DNA from: an uncultured Vicinamibacterales bacterium | GTDB lineage: Bacteria; Acidobacteriota; Vicinamibacteria; Vicinamibacterales; UBA8438 | Direction of reading: 5' to 3' | Length of the DNA stretch: 64,000 nucleotides | Assembly (NCBI GenBank): GCA_958295905.1 | Contig: OY282382.1 | Location: forward strand, 3,496,001 to 3,560,000 | Notes under the pieces: generated by a model | Database searches by the model: none | What the model was told of the DNA's origin: nothing | What the model saw: only the letters and a program-made list of their open reading frames with translations | Part shown: piece by piece, positions 57,079 through 62,594 of the stretch | How the letters are laid out: every line of letters starts with the position of its first letter | Numbering within the stretch: position 1 is the stretch's first letter | Program-made: the position numbers and the translations under genes

Positions 57079-58545
57079 CCTAGCAGCCCGTGGTGAAAGT
57101 CGGCGTCCAGGGATCGACAGGGCGGCCCCCATGTACTACACTGGCGGGCATGGCAATGGGCACGGTGCGCGACGACGGGTCGCAGCAGTCGATGTGGGTC
57201 GCGACGGCGGATCTGTCGCAGAGTGCGGGGCATCCGTTCTACGAGCGACTGAACCGGATTCTGGAGGCGGCAGGGTTCGACGCGTTCGTCGAAGGCCTGT
57301 GCGCGCCGTTCTACGCGGTGATGGGCCGGCCGAGTCTGGCTCCCGGACGGTACTTCCGATTGCTGCTCATCGGGTACTTCGAAGGGCTGGACTCGGAGCG
57401 GGGCATCGCGTGGCGCGCGGAGGATTCGCTGAGCATGCGGGCGTTTCTGCGTTTGGCGGCGCCGGCGGCGCCCCCGGACCATTCGACGATTTCGCGGACG
57501 CGTCGGCTGTTCCCGGTGGAGACCCATCAGGCGGTGTTCACTTGGGTGCTGGAGCAGTTGGCGGGGGCGGGCTTGGTTGCGGGGAAGACGTTGGGCGTCG
57601 ATGCGACGACGCTGGAGGCGAACGCGGCGATGCGGAGCATCGTTCGGCGTGACACGGGCGAGGATTACACGGCGTTCCTGACCCGTTTGGCGAAAGCTTC
57701 CGGCATCGAGACGCCGACGGCGGAGGAGTTGGCGCGTTTTGACCGGAAGCGGAAGAAGAAGACGTCGAACAAGGATTGGACCCACCCCCACGACCCGGAC
57801 GCGAAGGTCGCGAAGATGAAGGACGGCAGCACCCACCTGGCCCACAAGGTGGAGCATGCGGTGGATCTGGAGACGGGTGCGGTGGTGGGTGTGACGATCC
57901 AGGGGGCGGACAAGGGGGATACGGCGACGATGGCCGAGACCCTCGTGACGGCGACGGAGCAGGTGGAGACGGTGTTGCCGGAGGCGGCGGGGGTTTCGGA
58001 GGTGGTTGCGGACAAGGGCTACCACAGCAACGAGACGATGGTGGATTTGGCGGCGGTGGAGGTTCGGAGCTACATTGCGGAGCCGGACCGGGGCCGGCGG
58101 AGCTGGAAGAACGCGCCGGAGGCTCGGGACGCGGTGTATGGGAACCGGCGCCGGATCCGGGGCAAGCGGGGCCGGCGTTTGCTGCGGCGTCGTGGCGAGC
58201 TGGTGGAGCGTCCGTTTGCGCACCTGTTTGAGACCGGCGGGATGCGCCGGGTGCACCTTCGGGGGCATTCGAACATCCTGAAGCGCCTGCTGGTGCACGT
58301 CGCGGGCCTCAACCTCGGGCTGCTTCTGCGTCAGGCGATCGGCGCCGGCACGCCCCGCGGCCTGCGGGGCGGGGTGGTATCCGCCGTCTGCGGGCTGATT
58401 GGGCGGTTTGTGGGCCTGTGGAGCGGTCTGGAGCGGCTCTTGACGCGATTCCGGCCCAATTCGGCGCGGGTCGCCGCGCTATCGAGCCACCGGCCCCTTC
58501 AGCCAGCCATCTGAACACCGGGGACTTCTACCTCGGGCTGCTAGG
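57079..58545 (+). mobile_element. Insertion sequence, IS1182-like, complete
   Basis: The left end CCTAGCAGCCCGTGGTGAAA (57079) and the reverse complement of the right end, CCTAGCAGCCCGAGGTAGAA (ending 58545), form inverted repeats of about 24 bp with few mismatches. Both ends contain CTAG. A further CTAG lies a few bases outside the left end (57073). No clear target-site duplication is visible. The single gene within is intact, so the element could still move. Confidence 0.85.
57150..58514 (+). CDS. IS1182-like DDE transposase
   Basis: The 454-residue protein starts at ATG 57150 (MAMGTVRDDGSQQSMWVATA). The N-terminal DUF772-type part has GYFEGLDSERGIAWRAEDSL and DHSTISRTRRLF; the catalytic DDE domain shows LGVDATTLEANAAM (first D), EVVADKGYHSNETMVDL (second D) and RRRGELVERPFAHLFETGGM (E). 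A positively charged linker FDRKRKKKTSNKDW lies between the first two. No frame break is seen. It catalyses transposition of the surrounding element. Confidence 0.93.
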   Translation: MAMGTVRDDGSQQSMWVATADLSQSAGHPFYERLNRILEAAGFDAFVEGLCAPFYAVMGRPSLAPGRYFRLLLIGYFEGLDSERGIAWRAEDSLSMRAFLRLAAPAAPPDHSTISRTRRLFPVETHQAVFTWVLEQLAGAGLVAGKTLGVDATTLEANAAMRSIVRRDTGEDYTAFLTRLAKASGIETPTAEELARFDRKRKKKTSNKDWTHPHDPDAKVAKMKDGSTHLAHKVEHAVDLETGAVVGVTIQGADKGDTATMAETLVTATEQVETVLPEAAGVSEVVADKGYHSNETMVDLAAVEVRSYIAEPDRGRRSWKNAPEARDAVYGNRRRIRGKRGRRLLRRRGELVERPFAHLFETGGMRRVHLRGHSNILKRLLVHVAGLNLGLLLRQAIGAGTPRGLRGGVVSAVCGLIGRFVGLWSGLERLLTRFRPNSARVAALSSHRPLQPAI

Positions 58546-59208: not shown

Positions 59209-60066
59209 TCACGACCACTTCAACCAGATCTCGAGGATGTGGCGCATCGCGACCTTCAGGCGGAGCTGCGTCCAGGAAAACGACTGCTCGAACTCCGGGA
59301 ATTCGTCAACATGAACTGCGGTGTTGAAGAGCTCGATGAGCGCGAGAGCGGAATCGAGCTCGGTGAGCAGGAACTTCCGGTAGCTCTTGTTGGGAATCGA
59401 TCGGCAGAGCCAAGCGATTCTCGTACGGCGGGTTGGGCGGTCGTGCTCGTCGAGCTGGTGCTTGGGGCTCGTCACCCAGGGCATCACGAGGTCGTTCGGC
59501 GCAGCGGCGTGGAGCACGCCGAGGAACAGCTTGCGTTCCGAGGCGGCAGCCTGGGTCCACCAATCGGGCCCGCGCTCTTCGCTGCGCTGCAGCGATCCGC
59601 GAAATTGGCAAGGGAATGCCGGGTTGAGCATCCCGAGCGTCCGCTCGAGGAACGCGTCGATATCGTCGGGGCGATGGGTCGGATGACGGTGCTGACGCCG
59701 CGGCCCTCGAGGCCGGCCCGAAGGTAAGCGCCCCGGAAAGTCGAGAAGCTTGCGGTTGGCGTGGACGTCGAGACCGGCGCTGACGGCGCCGATGCTGAGG
59801 TCGAGGCCGGCGCCGGCGGTGCCGACGCTGGCGGCGAGGTCGCCGAGGCCGGCGAGGCCGGCGGTGAGGCCAGGGCTGAGGCCAGGGCTGACGGCGCCGA
59901 TGCTGCTGAGGTCGAGGGCGTGGATGCTGCCGAGGCCGGCGCTGACGGGCTCGAGCTGGCCGCCGATGCTGAGGTCGAGGCCGGCGCCGGCGGTGCCGAC
60001 GCTGGTGCCGAGGCCGTCGAGGCCGTCGAGGGTGGTGCTGCCGAGGCTAGAAGGGAACTTCGTCAT
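59209..60066 (-). CDS. Unknown protein with Gly/Leu-rich repeats, partner of the HTH gene
   Basis: The 285-residue protein starts at ATG 60066, overlapping the stop of the HTH gene by four bases (ATGA). Residues 1-110 are low-complexity repeats of GTAGAGLDLSIG and GAVSPGLSPGL type. Then comes a basic linker (RLPSGRPRGPRRQHRHP) and a helical C-terminal domain: IDAFLERTLGMLNPAF, RKLFLGVLHAAAPND, then RRTRIAWLCRSIPNKSYRKF and LDSALALIELFNTAVHVDEF. The C-terminal part vaguely recalls predicted pPIWI-associated or abortive-infection-type nucleases, but I cannot confirm this. The coupling with an HTH protein in a mobile region suggests a defence or replication unit. Confidence 0.65.
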   Translation of the reverse strand: MTKFPSSLGSTTLDGLDGLGTSVGTAGAGLDLSIGGQLEPVSAGLGSIHALDLSSIGAVSPGLSPGLTAGLAGLGDLAASVGTAGAGLDLSIGAVSAGLDVHANRKLLDFPGRLPSGRPRGPRRQHRHPTHRPDDIDAFLERTLGMLNPAFPCQFRGSLQRSEERGPDWWTQAAASERKLFLGVLHAAAPNDLVMPWVTSPKHQLDEHDRPTRRTRIAWLCRSIPNKSYRKFLLTELDSALALIELFNTAVHVDEFPEFEQSFSWTQLRLKVAMRHILEIWLKWS

Positions 60067-60473
60067 CTGAGAGCCGCCTTTTCCACAGGGACATTGGTCT
60101 GCACCAGGAGCTTGTTGAAAAGTGGGGTCAGGTCGAAGAGGTTGGTGTTTCCGGTCCGGCGTATCCGGTGCAGGCACCCCTTTCGCTCGAGATTCTGCGC
60201 GTAGCGCCGAGCCATCTTCACCGTGACGCCCATCCTGCTCGCCAACTTCGCATAGCTCGGGAACGGTGCTTCCTGGTCCCACTTGAACTCCATGAGATGG
60301 AGCACGAAGAGGGCTTCGGCGTGGGTCAAGGCATGCGGTTCCAGCCGGCTGTAGTGCTGGAGGAAGCCGGATGGAACGACGAGATACCCCGCCTTCAGGA
60401 GTTCAGGGTATTTCCACCGGTCGGCGTAGCTTCTAGAAGGTCTCGCTGGAGTAGCCGATTCAAGATCCGACAT
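60063..60473 (-). CDS. HTH_36-like winged-helix protein
   Basis: The 136-residue protein MSDLESATPARPSRSYADRW has a typical replication-initiator-type helix-turn-helix: HAEALFVLHLMEFKWDQEAP, FPSYAKLASRMGVTVKMARR, YAQNLERKGCLHRIRRTGNT, NLFDLTPLFNKLL. Such HTH_36 domains occur in plasmid/phage replication or regulatory proteins. It overlaps the next gene by ATGA. The tRNA-like gene lies 30 bp upstream on the same strand. Confidence 0.8.
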   Translation of the reverse strand: MSDLESATPARPSRSYADRWKYPELLKAGYLVVPSGFLQHYSRLEPHALTHAEALFVLHLMEFKWDQEAPFPSYAKLASRMGVTVKMARRYAQNLERKGCLHRIRRTGNTNLFDLTPLFNKLLVQTNVPVEKAALR

Positions 60474-60503: not shown

Positions 60504-60596
60504 TGGCGGAGAGGCTGGGAATTGAACCCTGTCCCTGGAAGGGACATCGGCGCGATGTGTAAAGTCGCGTGGCCCACCAGAGCCCGAAGCCTCTCC
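60504..60596 (-). tRNA. Unusual tRNA-like gene with 9+3 acceptor/T-stem (allo-tRNA-like)
   Basis: On the minus strand a 93-nt RNA begins GGAGAGGCT (60596-60588) and ends AGCCTCTCC G CCA (60516-60504): a perfect 9-bp acceptor stem, discriminator G and an encoded CCA. The T-arm is GGG-TTCAATT-CCC, only 3 bp, directly stacked on the 9 bp. A long variable arm TGTCCC-TTCCA-GGGACA (6 bp) comes just before. The D-arm is GGCTC-TGGT-GGGCC and the anticodon arm CGCGA-CTTTACACA-TCGCG. Nine-plus-three geometry with G73 and a long variable arm is known from allo-tRNAs (SerRS-charged or Sec-like), not canonical tRNAs. The loop allows UAC or UUA as anticodon, and the spacer CCGA before the variable arm is odd. 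It may be a pseudogene or an element-borne tRNA. Confidence 0.55.
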
Positions 60597-60775
60597 GCGG
60601 AGTCGAGCGCTCGAGAATGGCACGATCGGCCAAGTTCCGTCAACACCCATCTGATTCTTACTTCTCAGCGATTATTGGTTTATAGTTCTATATTCTACTT
60701 ATATCTGGACATTTTACGGACAGGGATATGCTCAAAATAGGGCTCCCACAAAAGCGGCCTTGCTATGATTGGAGC

Positions 60776-60808
60776 TGTGTAAAGTCGCGTGGCTCAACCA
60801 TGAGCCAC
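60776..60808 (-). repeat. Partial copy of the tRNA-like D-arm/anticodon 5' half
   Basis: TGTGTAAAGTCGCGTGGC is identical at 60556-60573 and 60776-60793. Next to it the D-arm pairs with compensatory changes: GTGGCTCA-ACCA-TGAGCCAC on the plus strand (8 bp, loop ACCA), against GGCCC-ACCA-GAGCC in the first copy. No acceptor or T-arm is recognisable here, so it is not a second tRNA. The 60597-60775 stretch between is unusually AT-rich (TTGGTTTATAGTTCTATATT) and has no gene. Confidence 0.7.
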
Positions 60809-62118: not shown

Positions 62119-62290
62119 CAGGACCATCCCGCGCTCCGGCACCGCCGTGCCCGGGCGGAATCGTGGCGGGTCTGGGGCTCCGGACGGGAGGAATCGTGGG
62201 TCTCACGCGGCGCCGGCCGGTCGGCAAGACGGTGGCGACCCCTCGAATCGGGGCCGGGCCGTCACGCGCCGTCAGCGTGGGATGCCCCTG
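62119..62290 (+). repeat. Dispersed repeat family B, full copy
   Basis: Starts CAGGACCATCCCGCGCTCCG and ends CGTCAGCGTGGGATGCCCCTG less the last shared variants. It matches 8535 and 39884 throughout, with a few substitutions (for example GGGAGGAATCG for GTGCGGAATCG). Confidence 0.85.
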
Positions 62291-62300
62291 GTCCACCGGT

Positions 62301-62464
62301 GTCCGCCGGGGTCCGCCGGGGTCCGCCGGGGTCCGCCGGGGTCCGCCGGGGTCCGCCGGGGTCCGCCGGGGTCGTCCTGCGCGACGGTGGGCTCGTGGCG
62401 GCGCTCGGCGGGGGTCCGCCGGGGTCCGCCGGGGTCCGCCGGGGTCCGCCGGGGTCCGCCGGGG
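62301..62464 (+). repeat. 10-bp minisatellite GTCCGCCGGG in two blocks
   Basis: Seven perfect units lie at 62301-62370 and five at 62411-62460; a 40-bp unrelated segment (GTCGTCCTGCGCGACGGTGG and on) separates them. The array starts at the right end of repeat B. No CRISPR-like spacers occur; the units are contiguous. Confidence 0.95.
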
Positions 62465-62594
62465 CTCGGTACGGTCGAATCTGCTATGCTCAGAAAAGCG
62501 GGCGGCGACCGGCCGTCTCCCGGCAGTTCGCACGGCCGATTCCGAACCGTGTTCTCGGGTTTGCGCGGGTTGCCGTGCGCCCGGCGGAGAATCC

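Follow-up and report, generated by a model that had tools for sequence, protein, structure and literature searches.

A 9/3 allo-tRNA gene upstream of an HTH-nuclease gene pair in an uncultured Vicinamibacterales bacterium

The allo-tRNA locus

The window (the whole 64,000-nt stretch of contig OY282382.1 that was analyzed) encodes a 93-nt 9/3 allo-tRNA on the minus strand, with genes for an HTH protein and a predicted nuclease following in the same direction. The features of the locus are as follows.

57090..58514, plus strand: DUF772/DDE transposase (Pfam), convergent with the operon
59209..60066, minus strand: 285-aa protein with C-terminal pP_pnuc_1 domain (PF18165, predicted pPIWI-associating nuclease; Pfam 4e-10)
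60063..60473, minus strand: 136-aa HTH_36/DnaD_N protein (Pfam 6e-9 / 9e-9), with a 60% identical homolog at the same place in L076/L101
60504..60596, minus strand: 9/3 allo-tRNA with encoded CCA, 5' end at 60596, anticodon UAC, G73 (fold, tRNA-Sec match, homologs, covariation)
60530..60546, minus strand: long variable arm of the allo-tRNA, 6 bp (UGUCCC/GGGACA; fold and covariation)
60559..60561, minus strand: anticodon UAC (positions 34-36) in a 7-nt loop with a closing C31.A39 mismatch (covariation of pair 31-39 in the family)
60571..60584, minus strand: D-arm of the allo-tRNA, a Sec-like long D-stem of 5 bp (GGCUC/GGGCC) with the 4-nt loop UGGU (fold and covariation)
60638..60643, minus strand: TTGACG, a hexamer resembling a -35 element, 47 nt upstream of the allo-tRNA
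60776..60807, minus strand: incomplete, diverged second copy of the D-arm and 5' anticodon half, lying 220 bp upstream of the allo-tRNA and oriented like it (sequence search)

The 3' end of the allo-tRNA lies 30 nt from the HTH start codon, and no terminator-like site was found between them. The HTH stop codon overlaps the ATG of the nuclease gene (ATGA). The original prediction placed the tRNA beside a two-gene operon, which is correct but understated, as the tRNA is co-directional with both genes, immediately upstream of them, and the arrangement is conserved (see below). A consensus scan upstream of the allo-tRNA was negative for a full sigma-70 promoter; the -35-like hexamer has a counterpart in the L076/L101 homolog (TTGACGGA, 41 nt upstream). 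The nuclease has a PADLOC match of only 0.002. Low-complexity repeats (GLGDLAASVGTAGAGLDLSIG type) occupy the N-terminal half of its product (59750-60040).

The transposase is presumably IS1182-like, and a broken PQQ-dehydrogenase gene lies to the right of the locus. No IS1595 gene was identified nearby, and no inverted repeat pairs the region upstream of the allo-tRNA with the far side of the operon; an IS1595 transposon was thus rejected for this locus. A phage origin was also rejected, since neither the HTH protein nor the allo-tRNA has a match in viral contigs. Two blocks of a 10-bp tandem repeat (TCCGCCGGGG) occur at 62282-62467.

Searching the genome with a 17-mer of the allo-tRNA (up to 2 mismatches) recovered only one other site, the partial copy at 60776..60807, which is perhaps a degraded second allo-tRNA. 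The direct repeat that it forms with the gene (60556-60576 / 60776-60796, two copies in the genome), together with the transposase and the broken PQQ-dehydrogenase gene, could be read as an integration site or a decaying mobile-element remnant in which the allo-tRNA is the attachment site and the half-copy is the other end. This is very improbable, as the repeats enclose only 220 bp and no integrase gene occurs among the neighbors examined. Moreover, all stems of the allo-tRNA are intact and covary, which argues against decay.

Structure of the allo-tRNA

The RNA reads, 5' to 3', GGAGAGGCU UCG GGCUC UGGU GGGCC A CGCGA CUUUACACA UCGCG CCGA UGUCCC UUCCA GGGACA GGG UUCAAUU CCC AGCCUCUCC G CCA. 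The minimum free energy structure of the minus strand is the cloverleaf (-45.2 kcal/mol, z -4.18), and none of 200 shuffled sequences folds as well; the plus strand has a z of -3.29 without a cloverleaf. All nine acceptor pairs and all three T-stem pairs form, giving a 12-bp branch that has the total length found in normal tRNAs but is divided 9/3. Along with this branch, the other sequence traits of allo-tRNAs are present: a long D-stem with a short loop, a long variable arm, and serine identity elements (the variable arm and discriminator G73) combined with a non-serine anticodon. Acceptor pairs 1-7 are identical to those of the host tRNASer(CGA), and the tertiary contacts (GG in the D-loop, T-loop UUCAAUU) are intact. 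The allo-tRNA structure is certain. The original prediction of an allo-tRNA-like gene had the exact coordinates, stems, variable arm and encoded CCA, and left the D-arm and the strand unmentioned.

Neither ARAGORN nor Rfam at its gathering thresholds calls a tRNA at 60504-60596. A canonical 7/5 tRNA is ruled out by the lack of a 7-bp acceptor and 5-bp T-stem and by the failure of ARAGORN and RF00005 to detect one. The Sec-model search that the original prediction proposed does give a match (RF01852, 36.7 bits, E 1e-5), although below the 47-bit cut-off. Given this score, the 12-bp branch (rather than 13 bp as 8/5 or 9/4) and the anticodon UAC (rather than UCA), we also rule out a tRNASec. Standard tRNA annotation thus misses genes of this kind.

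Two tandem short tRNASec-like copies were noted just downstream of a real tRNASec gene in one genome (G000:C1:213040-213245; L061:541-624 and 669-750). They retain the 8-bp acceptor, variable arm, 5-bp T-arm and CCA, with a shorter sequence in place of the D and anticodon arms.

Homologs and covariation

A covariance model built from the window allo-tRNA alone, run over 162 genomes of the order, recovered one further 9/3 allo-tRNA (50.8 bits) and otherwise ordinary tRNASec genes. The second gene is in Acidobacteria bacterium MGR_bin331 (genome G100, locus L076, on the same contig as L101, JACDDJ010000319.1), from another family of the order. The two sequences differ on both sides of 8 pairs, with every cell paired. 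Widening the model recovered 8/4 and 9/3 allo-tRNAs across the phylum. With five sequences (including the window), 24 of the 28 pairs have both-side changes and 94% of cells are paired, versus about 47% with the partners slid; with 33 sequences, both-side changes occur in 26/28 pairs and the signal is again lost on sliding. Fitting the alignments to the structure biases the counts in its favor, but the contrast with slid partners is large. Compensatory pairs in homologs, the check put forward with the original prediction, are therefore found.

G73 is present in 28 of 30 acidobacterial allo-tRNAs. No full-length DNA homolog was identified in 100 genomes of the order, only T-arm and acceptor matches to tRNASer-type ends. 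Two same-genus genomes lack the allo-tRNA, and we conclude that it is accessory.

Tandem T-arm clusters in two genomes (G037 and G064) were considered as allo-tRNAs and rejected, as those examined are partial tRNASer 3' ends. On contigs G037:C51 and G064:C77 (L042 and others), several such ends (T-arm, acceptor and CCA) occur kilobases apart; they were probably left behind when elements integrated serially into a tRNASer gene.

Anticodon, charging and the genetic code

The original prediction left the anticodon as UAC or UUA. Across 30 acidobacterial allo-tRNAs pair 31-39 is mostly U-A, C-G, A-U, G-C or U-G, and a C.A or A.C mismatch occurs in others, including the window, L076, L109 and L113. 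This covariation fixes the 7-nt loop and U33, so that the anticodon is UAC (reading GUA), and the ochre-reading UUA is not supported. Other family members have UAG (L076) and UAU (16 others), but GCG, GCA, GCC, GAG and GUC also occur in this sample, which is biased by the seed sequences. Thus, reading of NUA codons is not general to allo-tRNAs.

The suggestion that the tRNA serves reassigned codons found no support. A canonical tRNA-Val(UAC) is present in the host, along with an otherwise ordinary tRNA set, a separate tRNASec (63 bits) and a single SerRS gene; reassignment is therefore not indicated. The SerRS gene is about 2.8 Mb from the allo-tRNA, contrary to the proposed linkage, and as the only one in the genome it leaves no dedicated enzyme for the allo-tRNA. 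In 119 roughly called genes, GUA makes up about 1.8 per 1000 codons and 2.3% of valine codons; CUA and AUA, like GUA, are each below 2 per 1000. GUA occurs in neither the HTH nor the nuclease gene, so the operon does not depend on in-frame GUA.

The allo-tRNA is likely charged with serine, judging by G73, the variable arm, the acceptor pairs shared with tRNASer(CGA) and experiments on other allo-tRNAs (PMC7609411; PMC7590224). For example, 9/3 allo-tRNAs from Silvibacterium insert serine in E. coli according to their identity elements rather than their anticodons (PMC7609411). The ordinary host SerRS would be the charging enzyme. These SerRS features and the intact tertiary contacts would also suit an ordinary missense or suppressor tRNA. 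Such a tRNA would decode some GUA codons across the genome ambiguously, as serine, and would stand before the HTH operon only incidentally, through hitch-hiking on a mobile element. We regard this as unlikely, because the host already has tRNA-Val(UAC), GUA accounts for only about 2% of valine codons, two same-genus genomes lack the gene and its order with the HTH gene is conserved.

Conservation of the operon

The L101 locus has the order 9/3 allo-tRNA (UAG), 17 nt, HTH gene (60% identical), 4-nt overlap and effector; the overlap is common to both loci, and a related transposase lies beyond the effector here too. The L101 effector (497 aa, nuclease-like) matches PADLOC PDC-M36A (E 1e-19) and differs from the PF18165 protein of the window. 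Among 84,980 species genomes and some 550 searched relatives, L101 has the one close HTH homolog, and a 9/3 allo-tRNA stands in the corresponding position there; no second close copy was found in 396 genomes of the phylum. The tRNA and HTH searches separately led to the same two loci, the only ones with the exact allo-tRNA-HTH-effector order.

The close spacing without a terminator-like site would fit a non-coding regulatory leader, in which the tRNA-like structure controls the HTH-nuclease mRNA via RNase P/Z processing or charging-dependent attenuation and does not work on the ribosome at all. In several allo-tRNAs of the family CCA is not encoded, and some UAU allo-tRNAs are inactive in translation in E. 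coli (PMC7609411), both of which are consistent with a leader. However, a mere leader does not need the anticodon loop, U33, G73 and (here) CCA that are kept, and the anticodons are specific and diverse. A leader without translational function thus seems improbable to us.

Proteobacterial plasmids carry more distant HTH relatives (about 34% identity), and DUF3800, Shedu or VapC genes lie close to several of them. None of these plasmid relatives has an allo-tRNA upstream, so the allo-tRNA is not essential to the HTH protein. In the plasmid loci (L091-L100), HTH_36/DnaD_N genes precede DUF3800 or large unknown genes, with Shedu, VapC or MazF genes nearby, and GACAT..ATGTC-like repeats precede several of the HTH genes. 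Another acidobacterial HTH relative precedes a gene that, by eye, we take to be Abi_2-like.

Other acidobacterial allo-tRNA loci

At 30 allo-tRNA loci, the tRNA often lies between co-directional genes. Two kinds of protein recur as partners: RmrA-type XRE-ImmA proteins (three loci, 9-20 nt upstream) and DUF5343-like proteins (four loci, two with a PDC-M34A match). A PD-Lambda-2_C protein, a Gp49/RelE-like toxin and a PDC-S42 protein are each found once. One IS1595-family element with 38-nt inverted repeats (L159:3539-6780) carries an XRE-ImmA (RmrA-like) gene together with a UAU allo-tRNA. Some allo-tRNA groups (GCG, GCC, GAG and GUC) adjoin ordinary genes. Each of two 9/3 allo-tRNAs with anticodon GCA (L171 and L173) is followed, about 280 nt downstream, by a co-directional gene; the two genes are related, and that of L171 encodes a SWIM-domain DDE transposase.

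By a crude count, the number of PADLOC matches in adjacent genes is not clearly above that of the ordinary tRNASec/tRNASer control, and thus the link of allo-tRNAs to defense is suggestive rather than statistically shown. The suggested difference from the control lies in the kind of adjacent gene, not clearly in number; five of the control matches are cold-shock proteins.

Proposed role

We consider it somewhat probable (about 0.55) that a functional serine-type allo-tRNA is the first element of a mobile, effector-swapping defense or toxin-antitoxin cassette. The cassette would be a three-part accessory operon of allo-tRNA, DnaD_N/HTH_36 regulator and nuclease effector, probably expressed as a single transcript starting upstream of the allo-tRNA, from which 3'-end processing would release the tRNA as well as the mRNA. 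The allo-tRNA may act for the cassette rather than in general translation, either as a missense tRNA that brings serine to NUA codons rarely used by the host or as a sensor of processing or charging. The former (at GUA, CUA and AUA) is attractive, although not general to all allo-tRNAs, and the allo-tRNA could about equally well serve as a leader or sensor. It is a quite doubtful extension that acidobacterial allo-tRNAs are working parts of mobile defense or toxin-antitoxin operons. In this view, a Ser-charged tRNA bearing an off-identity anticodon (UAC here, but UAU or UAG in relatives) would be expressed or released alongside the nuclease and would mistranslate codons used often by AT-rich invaders but rarely by the GC-rich host.

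Earlier authors have suggested suppression, regulation, and links to transposons or toxin-antitoxin systems as natural roles for allo-tRNAs. A concrete, testable proposal is now offered by the conservation of a tRNA-regulator-nuclease operon whose effectors are swapped, and by related allo-tRNAs that adjoin toxin-antitoxin or candidate defense genes, one of them on a transposon.

Comparison with known systems

The tRNASec family (RF01852) shares the long D-stem with 4-nt loop and the long variable arm of the window allo-tRNA, which is set apart from it by branch length, anticodon and score, as described above. The PD-lambda-2 and RmrA-type systems are not known to include a tRNA. Other acidobacterial allo-tRNAs, at L110, L163, L166 and L174, have proteins of these kinds as neighbors; in the window operon, a DnaD_N/HTH_36 regulator and a PF18165 nuclease take their place (PMC9519451; PADLOC). 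PD-lambda-2 resembles toxin-antitoxin systems and defends E. coli against phage lambda (PMC9519451). The phage defense candidate PDC-M36A of PADLOC is represented by the effector of L101, and the window effector is unrelated to it. Also among the closest counterparts are previously described 9/3 allo-tRNAs (Mukai et al., 2017, via the review PMC7609411; PMC7590224), which share the 9-bp acceptor, 3-bp T-stem, long D-stem, long variable arm, serine features, non-serine anticodon and occurrence in Acidobacteria, although the anticodons listed in the review (PMC7609411) are those for Arg, Leu and ochre rather than UAC. As far as could be checked, this is the first description of a 9/3 allo-tRNA heading a conserved HTH-nuclease operon.
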